A stretch of 64,000 nt of DNA, from contig NZ_CP085839.1 of assembly GCF_020715565.1 (NCBI RefSeq), positions 1,550,001 through 1,614,000 on the forward strand, written 5' to 3'. This document shows, one piece after another, positions 2,855-15,767 of this stretch (its first letter is position 1; each line of letters starts with the position of its first letter). This DNA comes from Nocardioides sp. Kera G14 (GTDB taxonomy: Bacteria; Actinomycetota; Actinomycetes; Propionibacteriales; Nocardioidaceae). The notes below the pieces were generated by a model, which worked only from the letters and a program-made list of their open reading frames with translations, ran no database searches and was not told where the DNA came from. The position numbers and the translations under genes are program-made.

Positions 2855-3426
2855 CCGCGCGAGGAGTTGGCCGTCCTCCCGCGGACGATCCCGACGAACG
2901 CCTGGGTGCGCTCGTCGTCGCGCTCCTTCAACCACGCGAGACCGACCGTCGTGGGGTCCAAGTCGGTCACCGGGCGCTGGACGGTGTCCTTGCGGCGGAA
3001 GAGCCGGCCCACGGACATCGGCACCAGCACGACGCCGGTTCCCGCGGCGACGGTCTCGATCGCATCCTTCGGGCCCATCGGCGGCCAGGGAAGCTGCTCG
3101 GTCGACGGCTGCCAGCCCGAGGCGTGGGGGGCGACGAGTTGCTCACCGTCGAGGTCCGAGAGCGAGACCTCATCGGCGGCCGCGACGAAGTGCTCGACGC
3201 CGGCGACGACGACCGGCACCTCGTCGTACAGGCGGATGAGGTGGAGGCCGTCGGTGTCGAGGGGGAGACGGACCAGGGCCATGTCGACCTTCCCCTCGCG
3301 GATCGCGCTGAGCTGATCGGCCTCGTCAAGCGGAACCAGCTCCAGTGACTCCCGGGACCGGTCGCGCCAGGCGCGGGCCCACTTGTCCGGGGTCGCGCCG
3401 GTGACGTAGCCGAGACGGAAGGTCAT
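2851..3426 (-). CDS. LysR-type substrate-binding domain protein (no HTH)
   Basis: 191 residues that match only the effector-binding half of LysR regulators: beta-strand starts such as FRLGYVTGA, then a hinge followed by IREGKVDMALVRLP and, near the end, ETVAAGTGVVLVPMS, the typical second-lobe signature. No helix-turn-helix precedes it. Such stand-alone domains are common in actinobacteria and may bind small molecules or act on a partner; the role is unknown. The ATG is preceded by TACGGT 6 nt upstream (3433-3438 on this strand), consistent with a leaderless start. It ends tail to tail with the nucleoside phosphorylase-like gene. Confidence 0.8.
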   Translation of the reverse strand: MTFRLGYVTGATPDKWARAWRDRSRESLELVPLDEADQLSAIREGKVDMALVRLPLDTDGLHLIRLYDEVPVVVAGVEHFVAAADEVSLSDLDGEQLVAPHASGWQPSTEQLPWPPMGPKDAIETVAAGTGVVLVPMSVGRLFRRKDTVQRPVTDLDPTTVGLAWLKERDDERTQAFVGIVRGRTANSSRG

Positions 3427-3432
3427 GCCGCC

Positions 3433-3438
3433 ACCGTA
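3433..3438 (-). promoter_or_regulatory. -10 element for the LysR-domain gene
   Basis: TACGGT on the minus strand, 6 nt from the ATG at 3426. Fits a leaderless promoter. Pattern-based. Confidence 0.35.
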
Positions 3439-3468
3439 ACGGCGCCCGGCCCACCACGTTGAAGGGGC

Positions 3469-3765
3469 ATGATCGCAACCGTAGGCATCGACGTTCCGCA
3501 GGTCAGCCTGCGTGACGCGGCCTCGCTCGGTGCGGTACAGCGGCTGGCGTGGGCGATGGGGCGCCCGCCAGCCGCGCCCGCAGCACCCGCGCCTGCACCG
3601 TCGACGCCGGCCTCGACGGTCGCGTCCGTGGTCGTGCTCAAGGCTGCTCGGCGTGCGCGAGCCGCCGAGGCGCTCCGTCGGCTCGCCGCCGATCCGGCCG
3701 CCACACCGGCCGAGCGTGCGCTGGCCGCCGAGCGCGCCACGCAGTTCGGCCGCCGCTCCGCCTGA
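3469..3765 (+). CDS. hypothetical Ala-rich protein
   Basis: 98-residue protein that I do not recognise. It has an N-terminal segment MIATVGIDVPQVSLRDAASL, an Ala-Pro-rich linker at about residues 33-50, and a basic, Ala-rich, probably helical C-terminal half. No signal peptide or membrane segment. GAAGGGG precedes the ATG at a rather short distance. Codon use resembles neighbouring genes, but the compositional bias means a spurious frame cannot be excluded. Confidence 0.45.
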   Translation: MIATVGIDVPQVSLRDAASLGAVQRLAWAMGRPPAAPAAPAPAPSTPASTVASVVVLKAARRARAAEALRRLAADPAATPAERALAAERATQFGRRSA

Positions 3766-3806
3766 CGTCCCGCTCAGAACCGGGGCCTGGCGGCCGATGG
3801 TGAGGC

Positions 3807-4700
3807 GTGACCGATCACCTCATGGATGAGGGCGCGGCTCTGACGCAGGAAGCACAGGAGCCATGGCGGGGCCAGACGACGGTGCCTGCCGCAGACCCCG
3901 AGCCCGACGAAACGAATCAGATCCGCGCCGAGTTCGAATGGCGCCTGGAAGAGCGGACGAAGGCAGCGCGCTACCCGCACTCGCTGCGTCGGCTGACTTA
4001 CTCCGCGCGCGAGCTGAACACCATCAAGGCGATCGACCAGCAGGCCGCGGTCTGGATCCCCATCATCACCTTCGCCGTGACAGCGGTCTGCGCCGTCGGC
4101 GTCGTCCTTGTAGCCACACGAGTCGCGGACGACCCGGTCCACGGCCGACTCTCCGACGTGGTGGTCGTGCTCCTCACCTTGGGCCTGCTCGGCGCCGGTT
4201 TCGGTACCTTGAGCCGCTCGCAGGCGTGGTTTGACTCTCAACGGCCGCCAGGTCGCTCGGTGCGCACCGACCTGGCCGACGCCTACGAGACAGTGCGCGA
4301 GGGCGTGGCGGTCTTCCTGGAACTGGGAGTGCTGCCGGGTGCGCTCGGCCGGATCGCCGACCTCGTGCCACGGTCAGAACTTCTCCTGGACTTCCTCCTC
4401 GCGCACGAGGCGCGAGGCGGCACGGCGAAGGGACACCCCGCCTACGAGGAGTTGATCCGCATGGGCGCCGAAGTCACCGTCCTCACCGATATGGCCGAGG
4501 AGCGCCTTGGCCGGAGATCGGTCCGTCGCCGGGACCGGCGGGCGGACCCGGAGAGTGTTGCTCCCTCGCTCGATGACGTCACACCGTTCGCGACGTTGGC
4601 GGACTTGGTCGAGATGCTCGCGGTCGACATCCCGGCCCCACGACGCGCCGACACGTCGGCATCTGACGGAGCGTCTGACAAACCGGAGCGGAGCCTCTAG
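3807..4700 (+). CDS. hypothetical two-TM membrane protein
   Basis: 297 residues, family not recognised. About 75 hydrophilic residues precede two membrane helices (roughly residues 88-108 and 118-138). The C-terminal half is long, charged and helical, with RRSVRRRDRRAD near residue 240. The second helix is followed by LSRSQAWFDSQRPPGRS and a segment reading AYETVREGVAVFLELGVLPGALG. Likely a cytoplasmic-membrane protein with both ends inside. GTG start; an internal ATG (MDEGAAL) a few codons later is an alternative. It ends 47 bp before the solute-binding lipoprotein, which has its own promoter-like hexamer. Confidence 0.7.
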   Translation: MTDHLMDEGAALTQEAQEPWRGQTTVPAADPEPDETNQIRAEFEWRLEERTKAARYPHSLRRLTYSARELNTIKAIDQQAAVWIPIITFAVTAVCAVGVVLVATRVADDPVHGRLSDVVVVLLTLGLLGAGFGTLSRSQAWFDSQRPPGRSVRTDLADAYETVREGVAVFLELGVLPGALGRIADLVPRSELLLDFLLAHEARGGTAKGHPAYEELIRMGAEVTVLTDMAEERLGRRSVRRRDRRADPESVAPSLDDVTPFATLADLVEMLAVDIPAPRRADTSASDGASDKPERSL

Positions 4701-4702
4701 CC

Positions 4703-4708
4703 TAGTAT
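4703..4708 (+). promoter_or_regulatory. -10 element of the SBP-kinase-GT2 operon
   Basis: TAGTAT, followed by about 33 nt of leader and a strong ribosome-binding site AAGGAGGGT at 4738-4746, just before the GTG at 4748. This is a conventional leadered start, unlike many genes in the window. Confidence 0.4.
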
Positions 4709-4747
4709 CGGGACCTTCTCGGGGATGGACCGACTCAAGGAGGGTAC

Positions 4748-5665
4748 GTGCGACGACAACGGTGGATTCCGTTGCTGGTCGTGCCGATGGTGCTGGCGAT
4801 GGGCGGTTGTTCTACGTCCGGTGGCAAGGGTGAGACGACGTCGGGCGCCAAGGTGGCGCCGGTGAGCGGTCTGACCGGCTATGCCAAGCAGCTTGCGCAG
4901 AGCGGGCGGCTCCGGATCGGCGTGAAGTACGACGCACCAGGCATCGGTTACCTCGCCCCGGGGAAGACCACCCCAGCAGGCTTCGACGTGGAGATCGCCA
5001 AGATTCTTGCCGGCGGGCTCGGCATCCCGGCGGACAAGATCGAGTGGGTGCAGATGTTGAACTCCACTCGTGAGCAGGCCCTGACCAGCAATGCCGTGGA
5101 CCTCGTGGTCGCGTCCTACTCGATGTCCAGCGGTCGCGAAGCGCAGGTCGGGATGGCGGGACCGTACTACGTCACGGGCGCCCAACTCCTGGTGCGCGCG
5201 GCCGATCGGGCCCAGTTCAGCGCCATGCTCCCGGGCCCCAACGGCAATCCCCGGGTCCGCGCGCTTCCGCAGACCCTCGACGCCAAGACCTGCACGACGA
5301 GTGGCTCCACCGCGCAGGACGTCATCGCGCACGAGTTCAGGCAACGGCCGGTGGTCAAGGCCAGCTTCGCGGACTGCGTCGGCCTGCTCCAGCAGGGTGG
5401 CGTGAGCGCCGTCGTCGCCGACGGCGCTGTCGAGACGGGCTACGCACATGAGGCCGGGGGGGCCCTCGCCGTCGTGGGCGACCCGTTCACCGAGGAGAAG
5501 TACGGCGTCGGCTACCAGAAGGGCATGACCGGGATGTGCGACTACATCCAGAGGACCTTGCTCCGGGCCTACAAGGACGGCAGCTGGAGCCAAGCCTTTG
5601 CCGACACCCTCGGGAAGTCCGAGGAGGCGTCCTCACCCGAACCGCCCGCCTTCGATCCGTGTTGA
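4748..5665 (+). CDS. extracellular solute-binding lipoprotein (amino-acid type, SBP family 3)
   Basis: 305 residues. A lipoprotein signal peptide ends in the lipobox LAMGGC (Cys21). The rest resembles periplasmic glutamate/amino-acid binding proteins: LRIGVKYDAPGIGY, then GFDVEIAKILAGGLG, VDLVVASYSMSSGREAQVGMAGPY, and a second lobe with ADGAVETGYA. No ABC permease or ATPase gene follows. Instead the 3' end abuts a histidine kinase, so it may act as a sensor input rather than a transporter component; this is inference. The GTG start has a near-perfect AAGGAGG site. Confidence 0.88.
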   Translation: MRRQRWIPLLVVPMVLAMGGCSTSGGKGETTSGAKVAPVSGLTGYAKQLAQSGRLRIGVKYDAPGIGYLAPGKTTPAGFDVEIAKILAGGLGIPADKIEWVQMLNSTREQALTSNAVDLVVASYSMSSGREAQVGMAGPYYVTGAQLLVRAADRAQFSAMLPGPNGNPRVRALPQTLDAKTCTTSGSTAQDVIAHEFRQRPVVKASFADCVGLLQQGGVSAVVADGAVETGYAHEAGGALAVVGDPFTEEKYGVGYQKGMTGMCDYIQRTLLRAYKDGSWSQAFADTLGKSEEASSPEPPAFDPC

Positions 5666-5676
5666 GGCGCCTGGCG

Positions 5677-7338
5677 ATGGCCACCCCGACGAGCCGTGAT
5701 CGGATCGAGGCGTTCCCGGTCGCCCAGCTCCAGCTCCAGTTCACGCTCGCGACGGCCTTGGCGGTCACGGCCCTGCTGGTCTTCGGAGGAACCGGCCTCT
5801 CCCAGCGGATCGCGATCGCCGAGGGCATCACACTGATCGCCGTCGCCGGGCTCCTCGCGTTCGCCGTCTCCCGGTCCCCGAGTGCTCAGACCACGCTCCT
5901 TCTGGTGCCCGCACTCGACATGGTCGGCCTCGCGGTCATCATGCGCGAGGCGCCTTACGGCGGCCTGGAGACCCTGTTGGTCTTTCCTCTCATCTGGCTG
6001 GCGACCTCCTACCCAGGCCGGGTGCTCCTCGCCGGCTGCCTCCTCGCGGTCGTCCTGGTCTGGCTGGTCCGCCTTCCCGGAGTGTCGGTGGAGCCGGTCA
6101 CGGTCCGTTCCCTGCTCCAGGCGCTGAGCGCCTCATGCGCTCTTGCGCTCGCTGCGACGATGACGTGGTGGATGCGCCGGCGCTCCGACGCTCAGCACGT
6201 GCTGCTGCAACGGCAGACAGCCATTCTGGAGGGCGCCTTCGACAGGTCCAGCGCGGGTGAGGAGACGGTACGCCAAGTGCTGGATGCGGTGGCGTTCGCC
6301 GTCCTCGCCTTCGACGGCGCCGGTCGGCTCGTCACGGCGAACCGCGCGAGCGTTCAGTTGGTGCGCGCACTGGGGCTTCCACCGACCACCGACCTGATGA
6401 CACTGCCCTTCTATCGCGCGGACGGGTTCGAGCCCGTCGCGCCGGAGCAGTCGCCTGTGGCGCGCGCCATTCAGGGCGACGACGTCGACGACGAGCACTA
6501 CTGGCTCGGCCACCCGGGGGAGGCGCGCGCAGCGCTTTCGGTCTCGACGCGGATCCTGAGGGACCGTGGCGGAGCGACGACCAGCGTCGTGCTCGTCGCG
6601 AGTGACGTCACCGGTGAGTTCGAGGCCACCCAGGCGCGTGACGACCTCGCCGCATCGATCTCACACGAGCTCAGAACTCCTCTGAGCTCGATCATCGGTT
6701 ATGTCGACCTGGCGCTCGACGAGCCCGGGCTCAGCGAGCAGGTCCAGGCGCATCTCGAGGTCGTGGCCAAGAACGCCGACCGCATGCTGATCCTGGTGAA
6801 CGACCTCCTTGCTCATCGTGAACGCGAGGCCTCCGGCAGTCTCACCGTCTCGAAGGTCCCGATGGACCTGGTCCCCGTGGTCCGCGATTCGGTGTCGGCC
6901 GTGCTGCCGATGGCCCGTGACCGACTCATCGCCATCACGGTCGACATGCCGAACGAGCTTCGGGTCCTGGGCGATGCCCTTCGACTGCGCCAGGTCATCG
7001 ACAACCTGCTCTCCAATGCCATCAAGTACAACCGCGAAGGCGGGCAGGTCGAGGTGCTCGGTACGCAGCGCCACGACGAGGTGAAGGGCGACCTGGTCGA
7101 GATCGCCGTGAGCGACACCGGCCGCGGCATGACGCCCGAAGAGACCCGGCGCCTCTTCGAGCGCTTCTATCGCGCCCCGTCGGTCCGCCATACGGCGATA
7201 CGCGGCTCCGGCCTCGGTCTGAACATCTCCCGCCAACTCGTGGATCTCCACCGTGGCACCATCCGTGTGGCAAGCGTCCCCAACGTGGGCACCACCATGA
7301 CGGTCACCCTGCCCGCACTGGAGGTGGCGGCGGCATGA
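5677..7338 (+). CDS. membrane sensor histidine kinase
   Basis: 553 residues. About six membrane helices occupy residues 20-165, followed by a PAS-like region (about 190-315) and a HisKA/HATPase_c core. H330 lies in the H-box SISHELRTPL. The N-box is NLLSNAIKYN, the G1 box DTGRGM and the G2 box GSGLGL. It should autophosphorylate and pass phosphate to a response regulator, most likely the OmpR-type one encoded on the opposite strand at 10563-11555. Start: ATG at 5677 with GAGG 9 nt upstream; a GTG at 5659 overlapping the upstream gene is an alternative. The ATG of the next gene overlaps its stop by 4 bp. Confidence 0.92.
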   Translation: MATPTSRDRIEAFPVAQLQLQFTLATALAVTALLVFGGTGLSQRIAIAEGITLIAVAGLLAFAVSRSPSAQTTLLLVPALDMVGLAVIMREAPYGGLETLLVFPLIWLATSYPGRVLLAGCLLAVVLVWLVRLPGVSVEPVTVRSLLQALSASCALALAATMTWWMRRRSDAQHVLLQRQTAILEGAFDRSSAGEETVRQVLDAVAFAVLAFDGAGRLVTANRASVQLVRALGLPPTTDLMTLPFYRADGFEPVAPEQSPVARAIQGDDVDDEHYWLGHPGEARAALSVSTRILRDRGGATTSVVLVASDVTGEFEATQARDDLAASISHELRTPLSSIIGYVDLALDEPGLSEQVQAHLEVVAKNADRMLILVNDLLAHREREASGSLTVSKVPMDLVPVVRDSVSAVLPMARDRLIAITVDMPNELRVLGDALRLRQVIDNLLSNAIKYNREGGQVEVLGTQRHDEVKGDLVEIAVSDTGRGMTPEETRRLFERFYRAPSVRHTAIRGSGLGLNISRQLVDLHRGTIRVASVPNVGTTMTVTLPALEVAAA

Positions 7339-8444
7339 GCTTCGATCCTCTCACCATCGCGCTGTCTACCTCCGTGGCCGTCGGCGTGGTCGCGGTCGTC
7401 TACGGTCTCACCACGACGCAGCGCCACGACGACCGTCCCAACCGGCTGGCTGCCGCGTCCTTCCTCGCGACTTTTGTCGGCGCTGGTGTGGCTCCGACGA
7501 TCGGCACACTCGGCTCTCTGGCGTCGAGAAGCGACGCAGGCACCGTCTCGACGGTTCTCATGACGATGGGCGTGACTGCCGGCGCGGCGCTGCTGTGGAA
7601 CGCAAGCCAGTGCTTCGCCACGCGGCCCCCTCTCCTTGGCTTCACCGCCATGGCCGCGACGTTGGCATCCGCGGTCGCGCTCGTAGTCTCACTCACGGCT
7701 CCGCGATGGGATCTTCTTCCGGCGGCGGTGGTCGCAGGGCTCGTTCATGCGTTCGCAGCGGTCGAGCTCCGGCGAAGTCCCTCGGCCTCCAATCTCAACT
7801 CGATCCTTCTCGAGACGGTGATGTGGGCCGACTCGGGGGCCGGTGTGGTGCTGGCGGTCCTGAGCGGGGCCGATCGAATCGGACACGATGCGGCATGGGC
7901 CGCCTTCCTGACCGTGATCGCCGCCGGCTCACTGAGCGCGGCGCTCGCACTGACGGCACTACGCGTGGAGCGCTACGGCAACTGGTGGACGCTGGGCGAC
8001 GAACAGGACCGAATCGAGCTCGGCGTCCACGAGGCGAACGTCTTCGTCGAGGAGGCCGCCGACCGGCTGGAGAGGTGCCAGACGGCAGGCCAGCCGGTCC
8101 ATTTCATGACCGCAAGCCTCCCGGGGCTGGTGGAGTTGAACACGGCGTATGGCCATCTCGCCGGTGATGCGGCGCTGCGATGGGTGGCAGAGATCCTCCG
8201 TCGCCAGGCGCCGCCGTCGGCCGTGCTGGGACACCTGGGCGCTGGAAGGTTCGCCATCGTCACGTCCCGCGACCCCGAACTCATCGCCAACGCGGTGCAG
8301 ACGGGCATGATGCGGGTCCCTCCGCCCGCATCCCTTCCGGTTCGCCTCACGCCCGTGTTCTCCTGGGCGTCGAGTGATGAGGCAGGCTATGACCTGGATG
8401 TCATGCGCGTGACCGCGGAGGAGAGGTTGGCCAATGTCTCTTGA
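7335..8444 (+). CDS. multi-TM protein with degenerate GGDEF domain
   Basis: 369 residues. An N-terminal half with about seven membrane helices (residues 5-210) is followed by a cytoplasmic GGDEF-fold domain. The family landmark AYGHLAGDAALRWVAEIL is intact, but the signature loop reads GAGRF (302-306) in place of GGDEF, and no RxxD inhibitory site lies just upstream. It is therefore very unlikely to make c-di-GMP and lacks the classical I-site. It overlaps the kinase by 4 bp and the glycosyltransferase by 11 bp, so it is tightly coupled to both. A structural or signalling partner of the synthase is inferred, by loose analogy with PelD. Confidence 0.85.
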   Translation: MSFDPLTIALSTSVAVGVVAVVYGLTTTQRHDDRPNRLAAASFLATFVGAGVAPTIGTLGSLASRSDAGTVSTVLMTMGVTAGAALLWNASQCFATRPPLLGFTAMAATLASAVALVVSLTAPRWDLLPAAVVAGLVHAFAAVELRRSPSASNLNSILLETVMWADSGAGVVLAVLSGADRIGHDAAWAAFLTVIAAGSLSAALALTALRVERYGNWWTLGDEQDRIELGVHEANVFVEEAADRLERCQTAGQPVHFMTASLPGLVELNTAYGHLAGDAALRWVAEILRRQAPPSAVLGHLGAGRFAIVTSRDPELIANAVQTGMMRVPPPASLPVRLTPVFSWASSDEAGYDLDVMRVTAEERLANVS

Positions 8445-9828
8445 ACCTCAACCCGAGGCCCCGGCGCTCCTCGAACGACGTCGTCCGACGATCGGCTGCG
8501 TGGTGCCGGCCTACAACGAGGCGATGTCGATCGCTGGCGTCCTCGACTCCATGCTGTCGCAGACCTGCCGGCCTGATGCCATCCATGTCATCGTCAACAA
8601 CACCACGGACGACACAGCGAGAATCGCCGCGTGGTACGCCGGCGTCCACGAGATGGTCGTGAACGGCGAGCGGATGTTCACCGAGATCCACGTCCACGAC
8701 CTGGGCACGATGGATGACAAGAAGGTCGGCGCCTTGAACTACGGCTTCCGCCTGGTCGACGGCATGGACTACCTCCTGGGTATCGACGGCGACACCTCGG
8801 CCGACCCACGCGCGGTCGAGTACCTCGTCCAAGAGATGGAGACCGATCCGAGCATCGGTGGCATCTCGGCGATCTACAGCATCGATGACACCGCGATCGA
8901 CGGCCTGATGGCCAAGTTCCTGATCTGTGGCCAGCGGGCCCAGTTCTCGGCCTTCAACATGCGCAACCTGCTCAACGACCGCCAGATGGCGGTACTCGGG
9001 GGCCAGCTGTCCATCTTCTCCATGGAGGCGCTCCACGCCGTGGTGGCCGAGGGGCATCAGATCCAGCCGTGGCTCACGGTGAGCGAGGTCGAGGACTCGC
9101 TGCTGTCGCTGCAGATCCAGAGCGCGGGCTACAAGACGATGATCAGCAAGGATTCCCGCGCCAACGTGGGCGGAATGCTCACCATGAAGTCCCTGGACGC
9201 ACAGCAGGTGAAGTGGAACTACGGCTGCATCGATCTGATGTGGCCCGGCGTACGGAACGGGCACCGCGGCCAGCCCTTCCACCCGAATCTCCGCATCCGG
9301 TGGCTCGACAACTTCTCCATGCTGTTCAACGGCCTGACGCGGTTGGGTTTCTTCACACTGCTCACCTGCTCACTCCTGTTCCACGCCTTCGTGTTCACTG
9401 TGTGGTGGGCGATCCCGCCGGTCGCTGGCTGGCTTCTGAACATCCGCATCGCCCACACCATGGGCCGGCCACACCTGTCCGACTACCTCTTCGCGGGCCT
9501 CTTCCTGCCGGCCGAGCTCTATACATGGGTGCGCCTGGGCCACTTCGTGCGCGCCTGGTCGAAGTTCTTCTTCGCCCGAGCCGCGAACAACTGGGAACTG
9601 CAGGCTCAGGCGGAATCGGGCAGCGCCCGCAGCACTTACCTGGTGCCGTTCATGGTCGCCTGTCTCACCTACGTCGCAGGTGTGGTCGCATTCGATCAAC
9701 TGCTCTCGGTCCAGGCCAAGTCGGACGTCCTCTGGGTGTCATGGCGCGTACTCGGCGCCATCACCGTCTTCCAGACCTTCTGGATGGCGTTCCAGCTCCT
9801 GCGTCCATATAAGGGTTACAAGGCATGA
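8434..9828 (+). CDS. processive family 2 glycosyltransferase (membrane polysaccharide synthase)
   Basis: 464 residues. The GT-A domain of the cellulose/hyaluronan synthase type has VVPAYNEA for nucleotide binding, DGD at 118-120 (metal/UDP), ED at 220-221 (catalytic base region) and QQVKW at 257-261, the Q-x-x-x-W acceptor motif of processive enzymes. Four or five membrane helices follow from about residue 300. No PilZ domain is fused. The motif set predicts synthesis and export of a beta-linked glycan; the nearby GH6 enzyme hints at a beta-1,4-glucan, which is inference. GAGGAGAGG precedes the ATG, inside the upstream gene. Confidence 0.9.
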   Translation: MSLEPQPEAPALLERRRPTIGCVVPAYNEAMSIAGVLDSMLSQTCRPDAIHVIVNNTTDDTARIAAWYAGVHEMVVNGERMFTEIHVHDLGTMDDKKVGALNYGFRLVDGMDYLLGIDGDTSADPRAVEYLVQEMETDPSIGGISAIYSIDDTAIDGLMAKFLICGQRAQFSAFNMRNLLNDRQMAVLGGQLSIFSMEALHAVVAEGHQIQPWLTVSEVEDSLLSLQIQSAGYKTMISKDSRANVGGMLTMKSLDAQQVKWNYGCIDLMWPGVRNGHRGQPFHPNLRIRWLDNFSMLFNGLTRLGFFTLLTCSLLFHAFVFTVWWAIPPVAGWLLNIRIAHTMGRPHLSDYLFAGLFLPAELYTWVRLGHFVRAWSKFFFARAANNWELQAQAESGSARSTYLVPFMVACLTYVAGVVAFDQLLSVQAKSDVLWVSWRVLGAITVFQTFWMAFQLLRPYKGYKA

Positions 9829-10553
9829 CAATCTCCACACGGGCCGCCGCTGCACTCGTTGCCCTGGTGCTGCCCGCACTGACCGGTTGCCAGGCGTTCG
9901 GCTCGTCACGCCCGGAGACAACGGGGACCGACGAGGTCACCACGGCCGCCGATCCGTATCAGACCCACTCGAAGATCGACGAGGCCGAGTCGGCGTTCAC
10001 CCGTGACGGGACGTTCGAAACCCATACCGCCTCGACGGGGATCGACCTCGTGATGACGGTCTACCCCACCAAGGCAACGCCCCGCACCCACGAGTGGTAC
10101 CCCGGCGGGAACAAGTACTTCACCTTCACCTTCCAGGCCTACGACCTCGACGTCGCGATGCGCGACCCGTTCAAGAACAAGCGCAAGGTCTACCTCTCTC
10201 ACGTCGAGGTCACGTCGTCGTCCAACTCCGCCAGCGGGCTCGCGACCACGCCGTACACGCTCGACGCCGACCCGCTCGACGTCACACTCGACCCCGATCC
10301 CCTCAAGTCCGCCAAGTACGGCCAGCTCATCACCTCGCCCAAGGGGTCGCTGGAGGTGCGGAACCAGGTGATCGGGGAGCTGCCCGACGATACGACCGAG
10401 GTGACCCTGGACTTCAAGTTCAAGGTCTGGATCGAGAAGGCGGCCGGAAGCGGCCAGTACGTTCAGGACACGATTGAGGAGAAGATGCCGATCTTCATCT
10501 ACAAGAGTGACCTGCCGACGCGAGTGCTCCCCATCGCCATCGACGCCAACTGA
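9825..10553 (+). CDS. lipoprotein of the GT2 operon
   Basis: 242 residues, family not recognised. The signal peptide ends LTGC (Cys22), so it is predicted to be lipid-anchored outside the membrane. The mature part is rich in beta-strand-like stretches, e.g. YFTFTFQAYDLDVAMRDP and VYLSHVEVTSSS, suggesting one or two beta-sandwich domains. Its ATG overlaps the GT2 stop (ATGA), so the two are co-translated. A role in secreting or anchoring the polysaccharide is inferred from position only. Confidence 0.8.
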   Translation: MTISTRAAAALVALVLPALTGCQAFGSSRPETTGTDEVTTAADPYQTHSKIDEAESAFTRDGTFETHTASTGIDLVMTVYPTKATPRTHEWYPGGNKYFTFTFQAYDLDVAMRDPFKNKRKVYLSHVEVTSSSNSASGLATTPYTLDADPLDVTLDPDPLKSAKYGQLITSPKGSLEVRNQVIGELPDDTTEVTLDFKFKVWIEKAAGSGQYVQDTIEEKMPIFIYKSDLPTRVLPIAIDAN

Positions 10554-10562
10554 CCGCCGGCC

Positions 10563-11555
10563 TCATGGAGTCATGCGATAGCCGACGTTGTCGACCGTCT
10601 CGATCCAGCGTGAGGGCGTGCCCTCGTCTCGAAGCTTCCTGCGCAACGAGGCCACCTGCTGGTCGATGACGCGCTTGTCGTGCTCGGTGACGAAGTACGA
10701 GGTCACGTAGGACTCGCCGCGCGCGGACAGCACGAGGTCGGCCTTGCTCCGCACCCGCCGACCGCTGGACATCAGGGCCTTCAGGAGGCCGAACTCTTCG
10801 GGGGAGAGGGAGACGCCGGCGCCGTCCACAGTGACCTGGCCGCTCGCCGTGTGCAGCAGCAGTCCCCTGTGTGAGTAGAGACCCTGGTCGGTAGCCAAGG
10901 GATGACCGGCTGCCGGCGCTACCGCAGGGGTGTAGGGCATCGGTTCCGGCGAGGGCGACTCCGTCCAGGCCGGCACCGTCTGATGCACCTCGGGTGCGGG
11001 CTGAGGCGCTGGGTAAGGCGCGGGCTGGGGTGCAGGGTGGGCGACCGGCTGCCAGCCGGGCTCAGCCACGGGTGGGACCGCCGGTGGTGGCTGGACGGGC
11101 TCAGGGTGCGGCTGCTGAAGCGCTGTCTCTCGCCGCCAGAGCCCGTCATCGACCGGCTCCGGCACGTCTTCCCGTGAAACGCCGCGGGAGCGGCGAAGCA
11201 GGCTGCTGATTCGCGCTCGCAGCTCGCGGGGCCGGAAGGGCTTCGAGATGTACTCGTCCGCACCGGCGTTGAGGCCGGAGACCACATCGATCTCATCGTC
11301 CTGCGCGGTGATCATGATGATGTAGGTGTCGCTGAACTCGCGGATCGCTGCAGCTGCTGCGACCCCGTCCATGCCTGGCATCGAGACATCGAGCGTGGTG
11401 AGAACGGGGTTGTGGTACTTGACCGCAGCGACACCGTCCTCGCCGTTCGAGGTCAAGACGGGCTCGAAGCCACTCTGCGTGAGGACGGTGCGAAGGAGGT
11501 TGCGAACGTCGGGGTCGTCCTCGACGATCACGGCGATTTTCCGTCCGGTCTCCAT
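10563..11555 (-). CDS. OmpR-type response regulator with long Pro-rich linker
   Basis: 330 residues. The receiver domain (about 6-120) has the acidic pair VEDD, phosphoacceptor D56 in TLDVSMPGMDG and K105 in YISKPF. A Pro/Ala/Gln-rich linker of roughly 90 residues follows. The C-terminal winged helix of the Trans_reg_C type has LSPEEFGLLKALM and ends SLRRKL, IETVDNVGYRM. Likely partner of the histidine kinase at 5677-7338, with which it converges. The start METGRKIAVIVEDD is favoured because TAGGCT lies 8 nt before it; longer in-frame upstream starts would place the promoter inside the gene. Confidence 0.9.
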   Translation of the reverse strand: METGRKIAVIVEDDPDVRNLLRTVLTQSGFEPVLTSNGEDGVAAVKYHNPVLTTLDVSMPGMDGVAAAAAIREFSDTYIIMITAQDDEIDVVSGLNAGADEYISKPFRPRELRARISSLLRRSRGVSREDVPEPVDDGLWRRETALQQPHPEPVQPPPAVPPVAEPGWQPVAHPAPQPAPYPAPQPAPEVHQTVPAWTESPSPEPMPYTPAVAPAAGHPLATDQGLYSHRGLLLHTASGQVTVDGAGVSLSPEEFGLLKALMSSGRRVRSKADLVLSARGESYVTSYFVTEHDKRVIDQQVASLRRKLRDEGTPSRWIETVDNVGYRMTP

Positions 11556-11563
11556 AGGGCTGA

Positions 11564-11569
11564 AGCCTA
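11564..11569 (-). promoter_or_regulatory. -10 element for the response regulator
   Basis: TAGGCT on the minus strand, 8 nt from the ATG at 11555. Supports the short start and a leaderless mRNA. Confidence 0.45.
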
Positions 11570-12574
11570 GCCGGACCATCCTGCTGCCCGAGCGAGCGCC
11601 ACGGCTCGTGCGGGCCAGAAAGTGCCGGCGGCTGGTCCGCCGTTGCACGTACCGTCGCTCTCGCCGGGGGGCTTGATCCATAGGTGGGCGTCGAGCCCGG
11701 TGCCGTCCTGGACTGCCGCAGGCGACTCGCCCAGGGCCTGATCGGCGGGGTTACACCAGTCGCCACCCGTGGCACCGTGACCGTTGCGACTGGAGTCGAT
11801 CACGTAGTGGGCGCCGGGCAGCGCAGTCCGAAGTGTCTCTGCATAGGCGCGCTCGCCCGCGTCGCCGTCATAACCCGAGACGTTGACGGAGAAGCCACGC
11901 GTCCGTTCGATGCCGATGGTGGAAAGCATCTGGGCCATCTGCTCGGCCGGAACCCAGTCGGCATGCCCGGCGTCGACATAGATCGTCGCTGCGCTCGACA
12001 GGGCACCGATGGCACCATCGAGCAGTTCTTCACGCTGTTCGACGAGGTTGCACGCCAGCGCCGAGGCGAGGGCGTCGGGTTCCAGGATGACAACCGGGTC
12101 GCCGGAGAGCGCGCCGCCGATCGCCTGAACCCATGCGGAGTATCCCGACGGATCGAGCCCGCCGGAGGAATGTCCGCCTGAACAGTCCCGCGCCGGAATC
12201 CCGTAGATCACGAAGACCGGTAGCTGCGTGCCCGCCGCGGCGATGACCGACCGTACGAACGTCGCGACCTCGTCGGTGGGATGCTCCTCCGGTGTCAACC
12301 AGATCGCCGTGGGTGTCAGGGCGATGCGTTGCACCAGCGCCTGTTCTTCGCCGGTCAGGGCTGATGCCGCCGCCCCGGCCTTCTGTTCCGGCCACACGTA
12401 GAGCGGTCGCGACGCGAACGGATTGTCGCCGGAGGAGGGCGTGACCGTGACCATCGGAGGCAAGGAGGTGGATTCTGTCTGGGTGGCCGAGGGGGGCACC
12501 TTCTCGGATGCCCCGCACGCCGCGAGGAGCAGTGCTGCCGATGCTGCCACGACCAATGGGCTCAGCGCGCGCAT
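11567..12574 (-). CDS. GH6 family glucanase lipoprotein
   Basis: 335 residues. The lipoprotein signal peptide has lipobox LLAAC (Cys20), followed by a Ser/Thr/Pro linker and a glycoside hydrolase family 6 domain. Landmarks in order: VIYGIPARDCSGG (D130, the auxiliary Asp of the RDC motif), LEPDAL (D167, the proton donor position), IYVDAGHADW, GFSVNVSGY, YVIDSSRNG, DWCNP and LWIKPPGESDG. These fit an active endo- or exo-beta-1,4-glucanase. In Streptomyces a GH6 enzyme accompanies the cellulose-like synthase CslA, so this protein is probably an editing or release hydrolase for the GT2 product. GGGAGA lies before the ATG, and a TACTAT -10 precedes that. It follows closely upstream of the regulator gene on the same strand. 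Confidence 0.92.
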   Translation of the reverse strand: MRALSPLVVAASAALLLAACGASEKVPPSATQTESTSLPPMVTVTPSSGDNPFASRPLYVWPEQKAGAAASALTGEEQALVQRIALTPTAIWLTPEEHPTDEVATFVRSVIAAAGTQLPVFVIYGIPARDCSGGHSSGGLDPSGYSAWVQAIGGALSGDPVVILEPDALASALACNLVEQREELLDGAIGALSSAATIYVDAGHADWVPAEQMAQMLSTIGIERTRGFSVNVSGYDGDAGERAYAETLRTALPGAHYVIDSSRNGHGATGGDWCNPADQALGESPAAVQDGTGLDAHLWIKPPGESDGTCNGGPAAGTFWPARAVALARAAGWSG

Positions 12575-12591
12575 AGTTCTCCCACGGGGCC

Positions 12592-12597
12592 ATAGTA
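12592..12597 (-). promoter_or_regulatory. -10 element for the GH6 gene
   Basis: TACTAT on the minus strand, 17 nt from the ATG at 12574, leaving room for the GGGAGA ribosome-binding site. Divergent from the promoter at 12630. Confidence 0.35.
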
Positions 12598-12629
12598 CGG
12601 AAGACGCCGTTGAGCGGGCCTGCCACACG

Positions 12630-12635
12630 TAGAGT
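12630..12635 (+). promoter_or_regulatory. -10 element for the secreted CarboxypepD_reg-like gene
   Basis: TAGAGT, 7 nt before the ATG at 12643. Supports that start over the GTG at 12634, which overlaps the hexamer. Confidence 0.4.
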
Positions 12636-12642
12636 GACGCCC

Positions 12643-13668
12643 ATGGGATGGAGGAGGCCTGCCTGCTGCGCGGTCGCGATTCTCGCGCTGGCGTTCGGGC
12701 TGTTTCCTCGCTTGCCCCAGCCTGCAGCGCAGGCAGCAACCAGCTCCACCGTCTTCGGGGTCGTGACGACACACACGCACGTTCCCGTGCGGGTCAGCGT
12801 CGCCCTCTTCACCGTCGACTGGACGTATCTCGGAACGCGCATGTCCACGCGGGGCGGGGTCTTCCGCTTCAACCATCTTCCCGCAGGCACCTATCGCCTC
12901 CAGGCGACCGACGTCCGCCCGGCATGGAACGTGAAGAAGCTGGCACGCACCGATGCAACGGTCGCCGTGGGGAGCGGGGCGGCGGTCGAACGGGACATCG
13001 TGATGGGAAAGGGCGCCTTCGTCACCGGGACCGTGCGCGTCGGCAGGGGCCACGGTACGGCGGGCAGGCGCGCCACGATCGCGGTCGCCAGTGAGTACGG
13101 CGCGTCGTACACGACCGTCGCAGACAAGCGTGGGCGTTTCGCAGTGGCTGGCCTTCCTGGCGGACAGAGCTACTCGGTCTTCACGTGGGACAAGCGTGCA
13201 CGCTGGACCGGCCGCAGCATCTGGCTCGGGCGCCTCAAGGCGGGCAAAGGGCGAAACCTCCACGTGAGACTCAAGACAGCGTCCGGCTCCTACGCGGGGA
13301 TCCTGCGAGTGGGCGGCACACCGGCGAACGGCACGATCTGGGCAACGGTGGTGAGCCGAGCCAACGGCCAGTGGTGGACGGCGCCCATCGTGAACGGCGA
13401 CCTGTCCCGCTTCCGCGGGCTCTATCCGGGCGCCTATGTGCTCAAGCTTCCGCGGACCAGCCAGATGCCTGCGCAGGATCTTGCGTTGCCCGTCGTGCGC
13501 TCCGGGCGGACGACGCTCGCCCGGGTGGACGCGCGTCCCGCGCGCGCTCCTTCCGTGTCGCCCTCAGCATCGCCGTCAGCGTCGCCCTCTGTGTCGCCCT
13601 CCGTATCGCCGTCGGCCAGCGCGAGCGCGACGGCGAGTGCAACTGCGGAAGGGTCTCCGATCAGCTGA
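12643..13668 (+). CDS. secreted carboxypeptidase-regulatory-like protein
   Basis: 341 residues. A signal peptide with an ACCAVAILALAF core likely cleaves after AAQAA. At least two repeats of a beta-sandwich resembling the carboxypeptidase regulatory / Cna-B fold follow (FRFNHLPAGTYRLQA at about 80-95; RFAVAGLPGGQSYSV at about 165-180), plus a third weaker one (LYPGAYVLKL). The C-terminal tail is a low-complexity Ser-Pro-Ala stretch (about 297-341). No LPXTG. It diverges from the GH6 gene, so it may belong to the same surface-glycan system; function unknown. Confidence 0.8.
   Translation: MGWRRPACCAVAILALAFGLFPRLPQPAAQAATSSTVFGVVTTHTHVPVRVSVALFTVDWTYLGTRMSTRGGVFRFNHLPAGTYRLQATDVRPAWNVKKLARTDATVAVGSGAAVERDIVMGKGAFVTGTVRVGRGHGTAGRRATIAVASEYGASYTTVADKRGRFAVAGLPGGQSYSVFTWDKRARWTGRSIWLGRLKAGKGRNLHVRLKTASGSYAGILRVGGTPANGTIWATVVSRANGQWWTAPIVNGDLSRFRGLYPGAYVLKLPRTSQMPAQDLALPVVRSGRTTLARVDARPARAPSVSPSASPSASPSVSPSVSPSASASATASATAEGSPIS
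13556..13645 (+). repeat. Ser-Pro coding microsatellite-like repeat
   Basis: Imperfect tandem units of the type TCGCCCTCxG/TCGCCGTCxG encode the PS(A/V)SPS tail of the secreted protein. Length variation between strains is plausible. Confidence 0.6.
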
Positions 13669-14215
13669 GTCGGCGCCCGTAGTCGGGCAGGTCGAACTTC
13701 CGCTCGTAAAGACCACCGCGGAAGTCGCTCGGGAGATTGCCCACGGACGCGATGATCGTGAACCCCTTGGCGACGATCGCAGTCCGGCAGCGGACCTTGC
13801 TGTGCACGAGGCCCTCACCGTCCCCACGGCCGCAGATGCCGTTGACCGTGTAGCCGGCCCGACGGAGCTTCGGGCGCTGCGCCTTGGCGTCGGCCTGATG
13901 GCGCCCGGTCACGAAGAAGACCTTCACCCCGAGCTCGTGCGCGCGCTGCGCGAAGGCCAGCGTCTTTCGCACCGGTCGCGGCCAGGCGTAGTGCGTCGCC
14001 AGCGACGTGTTGTCGATGTCGAGCACGATCGCAAGGTGGTCACCGCCGCGCGCGACGCGCCTGTCCAGGTAGGGGATCGCGGGCTTCATCGCGACCGCCA
14101 CGTCGTGCAGCCACACCTTCTTGCTGGCCAACCCGGCCGCGTTGGCCGGGGACGCCGACAGGAAGGGCAGGAGGAGCAGGAGAGCGAGTCCGAGGAGCAT
14201 CCGAGAGGCACGCAT
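13661..14215 (-). CDS. secreted HAD-superfamily acid phosphatase-like protein
   Basis: 184 residues. An N-terminal signal peptide (LLGLALLLLLPFLSASPANA) is followed by a HAD core: LDIDNTSL supplies the DxDNT nucleophile motif I, VFFVTGRH is motif II and KVRCRTAIVAKGFTIIASVGNLPSDFRGG carries the motif III/IV region (the last Asp-rich turn reads GNLPSD). This matches the HAD class IIIB/C-like acid phosphatases. It should act outside the membrane. The ATG at 14215 is chosen; a GTG 24 bp upstream is an alternative. The 3' end overlaps the convergent upstream gene by 8 bp. Confidence 0.82.
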   Translation of the reverse strand: MRASRMLLGLALLLLLPFLSASPANAAGLASKKVWLHDVAVAMKPAIPYLDRRVARGGDHLAIVLDIDNTSLATHYAWPRPVRKTLAFAQRAHELGVKVFFVTGRHQADAKAQRPKLRRAGYTVNGICGRGDGEGLVHSKVRCRTAIVAKGFTIIASVGNLPSDFRGGLYERKFDLPDYGRRLS

Positions 14216-14259
14216 GGCTTCGACACTAATGGTTGGCACCCCAGCCGACAGGAATGCGA

Positions 14260-14288
14260 AAGGCCCCGGATCACTGATCCGGGGCCTT
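14260..14288 (-). terminator. hairpin terminator after tRNA-Leu
   Basis: Perfect 14-bp inverted repeat AAGGCCCCGGATCA / TGATCCGGGGCCTT with a one-base centre. It lies 10 bp past the tRNA 3' end and is followed on the minus strand by TTTCGCATT. It stands between the tRNA and the downstream HAD gene on the same strand. Confidence 0.8.
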
Positions 14289-14297
14289 GCAATCGCG

Positions 14298-14382
14298 TGC
14301 GCGAGGGGGGACTTGAACCCCCACCCACTATACGTGGACTAGCACCTCAAGCTAGCGCGTCTGCCTATTCCGCCACCCGCGC
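14298..14382 (-). tRNA. tRNA-Leu (anticodon GAG)
   Basis: 85-nt cloverleaf on the minus strand. Acceptor GCGCGGG pairs with CTCGCGC (one G-T pair), the discriminator is A, and the anticodon stem CTAGC/GCTAG encloses loop TTGAGGT with GAG at 14346-14348. A long variable arm (CCAC/GTGG) is typical of tRNA-Leu, and the T arm is GGGGG-TTCAAGT-CCCCC. CCA is not encoded. It reads CUC (and CUU) codons. Confidence 0.96.
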
Positions 14383-14435
14383 GAGTGCGGACAGAACGTT
14401 AGCAGTGTGGCCGCTGTGGCACTAATCGGGATCGA

Positions 14436-14441
14436 TACGGT
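14436..14441 (+). promoter_or_regulatory. -10 element for the M20 hydrolase
   Basis: TACGGT, 6 nt before the ATG at 14448; leaderless pattern. Divergent from the tRNA gene. Confidence 0.35.
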
Positions 14442-14447
14442 GGAGTC

Positions 14448-15767
14448 ATGGCCTTTGACGACCGTACCTACGACCCGGCTGGCGAGGTCGTCGACCTGTG
14501 CCGGGAGCTCATCCGCATCGACACGAGCAACTACGGCAACGAGCCCGGACCGGGGGAGAGGCCTGCGGCGGAGTACGTCGCCAGCCTGCTCGACGAGGTC
14601 GGGATCGAGGCGACTCTCCACGAGTCGACGCCCGGTCGCACCAACATGATCGCGCACTGGGGCGGCGACGGCTCTCGCGACGACGCGCTCCTCATCCACG
14701 GCCACCTCGACGTCGTACCGGCGGAGGCGAGCGACTGGCAGGTCGATCCGTTCTCCGGCGAGATCAAGGACGGCTACGTGTGGGGCCGCGGCGCGGTGGA
14801 CATGAAGGACTTCGACGCGATGGTCCTCAGCATCGTGCGGGCACGCCAGCGGGCCGGCGTACGTCCGAAGCGTCCTGTGGTGCTGGCCTTCACCGCGGAC
14901 GAGGAGGCGGGCGGCCACCACGGCGCCGAGCCCTTGGTGAAGGACCTGCGTGAGCACTTCGACGGTGTGACGGAGGCTGTGGGTGAGGTCGGTGGCTTCA
15001 GCACGACGATCCGAGGGAAGCGGCTCTACCTGATCGAGGCCGCGGAGAAGGGGATGGCGTGGATGCGCCTCACCGCTCGCGGCACAGCGGGCCACGGCTC
15101 GATGATCAACCGCGACAACGCCGTCAGCCGCCTGGCGGGCGCGGTGGCACGGATCGGTGCGCACGAGTGGCCAGTGACGCTGACGCCGACGATGGAGACG
15201 CTGCTGGCCGCCGTCGGTGAGATCGCCGGCGTGGAGGCGACACCGGACAACGCCGAGTCGCTCGTTGAGGAGTTCGGCCCTGCCGCGCGCATGATCGGCG
15301 CGACGCTGCGCAACGTCAGCAACCCGACGATGTTCGGCGCCGGCTACAAGGTCAACGTCATCCCCACCGAGGCGACGGCACACGTCGATGGCCGTTTCCT
15401 GCCCGGCTCGGACGACGGATTCTTCGAGACGATCTCGAAGCTCGTCGGTGACGGCATCGACATCGACTTCGTCTCCAACCAGAAGAGCTGGGAGATGCCG
15501 TACGCCGGCACGGCGATCTCCGACGCCATCGCGCAGTCGCTCCTCGCCGAGGACCCGGAGGCCCTCGTGGCGCCGTACCTCATGAGCGCCGGGACCGATG
15601 CCAAGCACTTCAGCACCCTCGGCATCCGGACCTACGGCTTCGCGCCGCTGCGACTGCCCGAGGACCTGGACTTCACCGGCCTCTTCCACGGCGTGGACGA
15701 GCGCGTCCCGGTCGACGCACTCGAGTTCGGGGCACGGGTCTTCGACCGGTTCCTCGACCTCTGCTGA
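14448..15767 (+). CDS. M20 family metallo-hydrolase (peptidase/deacylase)
   Basis: 439 residues of the DapE/ArgE/ACY1 superfamily. The di-zinc site is visible: LLIHGHLDVVP (H-x-D), GRGAVDMKDF (bridging Asp), TADEEAGG (catalytic Glu-Glu), and later AGTDAKHF with a metal-binding His. A dimerisation lid domain lies between about residues 200 and 310 (TARGTAGHGSM). It hydrolyses an amide bond in a peptide or N-acyl amino acid; the substrate is not deducible. Cytosolic, no signal peptide. Many actinobacterial homologues are annotated only as M20/M25/M40 hydrolases. Confidence 0.92.
   Translation: MAFDDRTYDPAGEVVDLCRELIRIDTSNYGNEPGPGERPAAEYVASLLDEVGIEATLHESTPGRTNMIAHWGGDGSRDDALLIHGHLDVVPAEASDWQVDPFSGEIKDGYVWGRGAVDMKDFDAMVLSIVRARQRAGVRPKRPVVLAFTADEEAGGHHGAEPLVKDLREHFDGVTEAVGEVGGFSTTIRGKRLYLIEAAEKGMAWMRLTARGTAGHGSMINRDNAVSRLAGAVARIGAHEWPVTLTPTMETLLAAVGEIAGVEATPDNAESLVEEFGPAARMIGATLRNVSNPTMFGAGYKVNVIPTEATAHVDGRFLPGSDDGFFETISKLVGDGIDIDFVSNQKSWEMPYAGTAISDAIAQSLLAEDPEALVAPYLMSAGTDAKHFSTLGIRTYGFAPLRLPEDLDFTGLFHGVDERVPVDALEFGARVFDRFLDLC

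Follow-up and report, generated by a model that had tools for sequence, protein, structure and literature searches.

A recurring candidate module for surface-glycan synthesis, with an OmpR-type regulator, in Nocardioides and related actinobacteria

In the genome of Nocardioides sp. Kera G14, a stretch of 64,000 nucleotides (1550001-1614000 of contig NZ_CP085839.1, which has 3,469,009 bases; hereafter the window, with positions counted from its first letter) carries a set of adjoining genes around a glycosyltransferase of family 2 (GT2). With a probability of roughly 0.6, this set represents a synthase-dependent surface-glycan module of actinobacteria, whose products would make, trim and control a cell-surface sugar polymer. 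The module is a recurring one, seen in two actinobacterial families from soil and plants. Its genes in the window, together with a secreted protein gene beside them, are the following:

5677-7338, plus strand: membrane histidine kinase (helices, PAS, HisKA and HATPase_c); the open reading frame (ORF) opens at 5536, with a likely start at ATG 5677
7335-8444, plus strand: membrane protein with a dead GGDEF domain (35 bits; GAGRF, without the RxxD I-site)
8434-9828, plus strand: processive-type GT2 glycan synthase (DGD, ED, QQVKW), matched by three GT2 models
9825-10553, plus strand: small lipoprotein with lipobox LTGC and a predicted beta-sandwich
10563-11555, minus strand: OmpR-type response regulator with a long Pro/Ala-rich linker (Response_reg and Trans_reg_C; start ATG 11555)
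11567-12574, minus strand: glucanase lipoprotein of glycoside hydrolase family 6 (GH6), lipobox LAAC (Glyco_hydro_6 match; start ATG 12574)
12643-13668, plus strand: secreted CarboxypepD_reg-like protein, with 68 bp between its gene and the divergently oriented GH6 gene

Start codons and the GC content at third codon positions indicated that GH6 and the regulator form a gene pair on the minus strand, and that the kinase likely begins 11 bp past the stop of an upstream gene for a solute-binding protein (SBP). An earlier sequence-only reading of this DNA had assigned seven genes, from the SBP to GH6, to the families given here, and ORFs and domain matches agree with it. The overlaps of 4-11 bp that it described are present between kinase and GGDEF genes (4 bp, 7335-7338), GGDEF and GT2 genes (11 bp, 8434-8444) and GT2 and lipoprotein genes (4 bp, 9825-9828), but not between SBP and kinase, where the likely start leaves a gap.

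The neighbourhood was followed across genomes by a protein search, in which 8000 scored candidates gave 1254 GT2 relatives (E <= 0.001), and by scanning 84,980 species genomes, where 372 stretches were found, 331 of them relatives. The best 80 loci were kept with flanks of up to 10 kb per side. They come mainly from Nocardioides, Aeromicrobium and Microbacteriaceae (Cryobacterium, Agreia, Glaciihabitans, Herbiconiux and others), with one from Sanguibacter, and 59 of them have full flanks, meaning at least 4.5 kb upstream and at least 6.5 kb downstream of GT2. The profiles used on these 59 were built from first-round matches in the same loci that were counted, so that the resulting counts express linkage and give no independent discovery rate: the lipoprotein and the regulator were each present in 59/59, GH6 in 57/59, the kinase in 29/59, the GGDEF protein in 28/59 and the latter two together in 28/59. 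The trio of lipoprotein, regulator and GH6 was complete in 57/59, L088 and L090 being the two full-flank loci without a GH6 match. First-round matches using the window proteins alone gave the same picture, except for the Microbacteriaceae lipoprotein, and the gene set was kept despite inversions and moves in L066, L070, L196, L202 and L207. Since the neighbourhood recurs, the gene set is more than a product of chance. A lack of conserved co-occurrence, which would have spoken against the sequence-only reading, is clearly contradicted by these linkages. What the recurring neighbourhood upholds of that reading is a surface-glycan system, conserved between genomes, in which an OmpR-type regulator goes together with a kinase and a protein with a dead GGDEF domain.

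GT2 is carried by 68 of the 215 genomes in the genus of the window and by 22 of the 394 in its class. A further sample of 16 regions was made up of 15 of the 23 places from the class search and one locus (L201) from genome G002 of the genus; one of these regions, L204, lies on a contig equal in length to that of L076 and is probably the same locus. The lipoprotein was found in 14 of these further loci (one weak match, in L195), the regulator in 13, GH6 in 12 and the kinase and GGDEF protein in 11. Gene number varies in some places: L208 holds two kinase-GGDEF pairs, two regulators and a third, weaker kinase match, and in G002 (L201:2145-16416) a single GT2 gene stands amid two regulators and three GH6 genes. 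A carboxyl transferase gene adjoins GT2 in many Nocardioides loci (L071:7282-9489 and similar). Beside the GT2 relative of L194 (L194:6304-11758) there is a UDP-glucose dehydrogenase gene upstream and, in place of GH6, a GH8 gene downstream.

Processive GT2 synthases are recognised by DxD, ED and QxxRW-type motifs, Arg being the usual residue in the last of these. The window protein and its relatives conform to this pattern, with DGD, ED and QQVKW invariant in 81/81 aligned rows and Lys replacing the usual Arg. The GH6 assignment is equally clear from the Pfam model (PF01341, 175.7 bits against a cut-off of 27) and from the motif ILEPDAL, whose EPD core is kept in at least 60 of 64 rows and whose Asp we take to be catalytic, in agreement with what is described for Asp120 of CslZ. 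The nearest solved structures are Cel6/CelA1 cellulases, with the catalytic motifs kept. Genome-wide there are four GH6 matches; GH6 alone is therefore unremarkable, and it is its linkage that is remarkable.

The comparison with Streptomyces cslA loci made in the sequence-only reading is apt. As set out in the relevant passages of PMC9040799, the cslA-glxA-cslZ cluster (with lpmP) has a membrane GT2 synthase facing an opposite-strand GH6 lipoprotein, CslZ, which, together with LpmP, is required to deposit the surface beta-1,4-glycan made by CslA; the GH6 lipoprotein gene of the window likewise faces its synthase operon from the other strand. The window differs in adding the small lipoprotein, the regulator, the kinase, the dead GGDEF protein and the CarboxypepD_reg-like protein, and CslA is likened here without sequence comparison. 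A Pfam scan of 19 window ORFs, covering every gene found in 3807-15767, gave no galactose-oxidase-like (GlxA) or lytic polysaccharide monooxygenase gene. Another Gram-positive synthase operon with its own cellulase is the clostridial ccsZABHI cellulose synthase, whose cellulase, according to the portion of PMC7710045 that describes it, belongs to the unrelated family GH5; the window cellulase is of GH6 and its regulators stand within the locus. No O-acetylation genes like those of ccsZABHI were seen among the window ORFs scanned. A C-terminal PilZ domain, as in BcsA, was found neither in the GT2 protein nor in any protein of the genome.

The nature of the polymer has nevertheless to be weighed. 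It is somewhat unlikely, though worth consideration, that GT2 makes a different product, either like poly-N-acetylglucosamine or a uronic-acid heteropolymer, and that GH6 opens peptidoglycan or wall for its passage. The best NCBIfam model for GT2 is PgaC_IcaA (TIGR03937), the best full-length Foldseek match is a hyaluronan synthase, albeit on a poor structure model (predicted local distance difference test score, pLDDT, of 60), the distant relative in L194 stands beside the UDP-glucose dehydrogenase gene, and CslZ is reported with LpmP to degrade peptidoglycan (PMC9040799, in the passages concerned). The PgaC_IcaA match, however, reaches 43.8 bits against a cut-off of 422.3, no deacetylase was found among the 19 window ORFs, and GH6 is kept in nearly all full-flank loci.

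Concerning its control, the phospho-acceptor His is present in 39/39 kinase rows and the phospho-acceptor Asp in 65/65 regulator rows, and the regulator has a predicted winged helix-turn-helix output domain; by sequence, the two proteins are of the OmpR-type two-component kind, a description which applies per protein and not to their partnership. The regulator linker holds 28 Pro in 102 residues. A simple hydropathy scan and Pfam give the kinase clustered membrane helices, a cytoplasmic PAS domain and no large outside domain. It could be that the kinase and regulator are mere neighbours that control other genes, the glycan genes being expressed independently; two-component genes are common and no shared upstream motif was found, but this is quite improbable given that the regulator is linked in every full-flank locus, even in those where its gene has moved or switched strand.

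The kinase and GGDEF genes are optional members, whereas the regulator is constant. The pair occurs in Aeromicrobium, in most of those Microbacteriaceae loci that reach far enough upstream, and in the window genome and one other of the genus; in the other sampled Nocardioides it is absent beside GT2. A quick tree of GT2, built on 83 rows, places the window in a set of ten, mostly Aeromicrobium, nine of which have the pair; the window branch is very long (1.47) and its exact place is therefore unsure. The trait required 9 changes on this tree against a shuffled mean of 27.9, and thus, as judged from these sequences, follows the GT2 tree. A profile of the kinase sensor region gave matches in 109/215 genus genomes, tailing into general PAS matches, which allowed no partner kinase to be assigned to the kinase-less Nocardioides loci.

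The alignment of the GGDEF protein against an intact GGDEF domain had 30 rows, one for the window and the others for 29 of the 37 matching loci; the I-site was counted by eye. The GG(D/E)EF active site of a diguanylate cyclase was kept in 0/30 rows, the window having GAGRF and 20/30 rows ending in GRF. The RxxD I-site was likewise found in 0/30 rows, with Pro at the Arg position in 28/30. The window genome contains 16 GGDEF matches, of which 15 have GG(D/E)EF, the module's protein being the sole exception. A paralogue at about 2361419 in the same genome has an intact GGEEF and fits the whole family profile including the membrane part, for which reason the dead form probably derives from a working cyclase. 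In the genus, the GGDEF-protein profile matches 41/215 genomes (E <= 1e-20) and lies beside GT2 only in G000, the window genome, and G002, which are also the only two genomes that appear on both the GT2 and the GGDEF-profile lists.

A degenerate GGDEF protein next to a synthase is known from two other systems. The Listeria pssA-E operon encodes a GT2 together with a membrane protein, PssE, whose dead GGDEF domain retains the RxxD I-site and binds cyclic di-GMP (c-di-GMP); the sections of PMC4125290 dealing with the operon mention neither a two-component pair nor GH6. In the Gram-positive pel operon (pelDEADAFG), as far as the corresponding part of PMC7112168 goes, a dead GGDEF membrane protein is also encoded with a polysaccharide synthase, but PelD differs by its intact I-site and by a GAF domain, which Pfam does not find in the window protein. 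Since PssE and PelD bind c-di-GMP at an intact RxxD, a protein without this site should not bind it by that route. A role as nucleotide receptor, in which c-di-GMP or guanosine triphosphate at a non-canonical site would switch GT2 on in the way of PssE and PelD with c-di-GMP, is thus to be considered with the position beside the synthase in its favour (the parts of PMC4125290 and PMC7112168 cited above), as well as the 15 intact GGDEF and 8 EAL matches in a genome lacking any PilZ match, and a neighbour of one family in 9/80 loci (L029:3921-6338 and eight more), the sampled member of which is a GGDEF-EAL protein and hints at a c-di-GMP link there. The loss of both motifs throughout the alignment, the Pro at the Arg position and the absence of any c-di-GMP riboswitch in 3300-15000 render such a role unlikely. 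With neither active site nor I-site, the dead GGDEF protein would rather serve as an adaptor than synthesise c-di-GMP. One may go further and tentatively propose a separate actinobacterial class of synthase-dependent glycan systems, in which this protein would be a dedicated structural or signal-relay subunit of the synthase and a hard-wired kinase and regulator would replace c-di-GMP.

Neither Pfam nor NCBIfam has a family that matches the small lipoprotein. In Microbacteriaceae, it is encoded on the opposite strand, between the GGDEF and GT2 genes, and is remotely homologous to that of the window (hhalign 98.2%, E 5.9e-14, 23% identity). The secreted CarboxypepD_reg-like protein, whose gene lies outside the part covered by the sequence-only reading and had gone unmentioned there, has relatives (E <= 1e-3) in 16/80 loci and 6/16 further loci, which ties it to the module. 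Its divergent layout adjoining GH6 was seen in seven loci (L020, L022, L023, L025, L026, L034 and L076), and in nine others the gene stands just upstream of GT2 (L024, L045, L048, L050, L051, L064, L066, L069 and L088).

The window genes on either side of the module are as follows:

3807-4700, plus strand: two-helix membrane protein P0001, upstream of the SBP gene and outside the conserved module
4748-5665, plus strand: SBP_bac_3 lipoprotein (67 bits), lineage-local and outside the conserved module
13661-14239, minus strand: acid-phosphatase-like gene of the HAD family, adjoining the secreted CarboxypepD_reg-like gene
14297-14382, minus strand: tRNA-Leu
14448-15767, plus strand: M20 peptidase

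ARAGORN also called a tRNA-Glu at 11626-11719, within the GH6 frame on the opposite strand; it has no Rfam match at gathering score and is probably a false call.

In the sequence-only reading, the SBP was part of the system and relayed a signal from outside the cell to the kinase, and hence to glycan synthesis. The SBP gene does lie on the same strand, 11 bp before that of the kinase, and might also accompany the nearest relatives of GT2 (P0013-P0015, 76-79% identical). A relative of the SBP was however found in 0/80 loci and 0/16 further loci, and the kinase, according to the hydropathy scan, offers no large outside domain to receive such a signal. Consequently, the SBP was rejected as a module member, and signalling through it is highly doubtful. 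P0001 is equally without a relative in the 80 and the 16 further loci; it occurs in 6/215 genus genomes including that of the window, and in the other five no SBP gene lies within about 1.5 kb of it.

The preferred interpretation, a surface-glycan module under two-component control, can then be put together as follows. GT2 would use a uridine diphosphate (UDP) sugar to polymerise a beta-1,4-linked or similar glycan and pass this through the membrane, the small lipoprotein would receive or guide it outside, GH6 would cut or release it and the secreted CarboxypepD_reg-like protein may bind or organise it. The kinase would sense via its membrane or PAS part and phosphorylate the regulator, which in turn would act on the promoters of the synthase operon, of the GH6 and regulator pair and of the secreted protein. 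The dead GGDEF protein is predicted to be a membrane adaptor on the synthase, a non-enzymatic subunit that does not make c-di-GMP. Membership, conserved motifs and linkage are what the sequences themselves establish, and these roles are our reading of them.

Several points weigh against this interpretation, beginning with the origin of the profile counts already stated. Within 18 kb of the GT2 relatives of L193 and L194 there is no module partner, and that of L195 has the weak lipoprotein match as its sole one. The regulator stands without the kinase in 30/59 full-flank loci, where another kinase may serve it, and the DNA upstream of GH6 yielded no shared motif. Moreover, CslZ is also reported to act on peptidoglycan, so that the presence of GH6 need not imply a beta-1,4-glucan product, and the GT2 structure model is poor (pLDDT 60).

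The module resembles the CslA/CslZ system combined with a regulator of the Pss/Pel type and does not correspond to the full definition of any of them. Set beside the tip-glycan cluster of Streptomyces, it is similar with control genes of its own, and what is new relative to known GH6 synthase-dependent glycan clusters is the two-component pair and the GGDEF protein without an I-site. Text searches of the literature gave nothing recognisable as this cluster, which does not prove it unpublished.

Regulated synthesis of surface glycans is little known in non-filamentous actinobacteria, for which the module provides a defined, recurring set with a likely enzyme, a hydrolase, a helper lipoprotein and a dedicated regulator. 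If the dead GGDEF protein does control the synthase without c-di-GMP, it would represent a new use of the GGDEF domain in polysaccharide synthesis.

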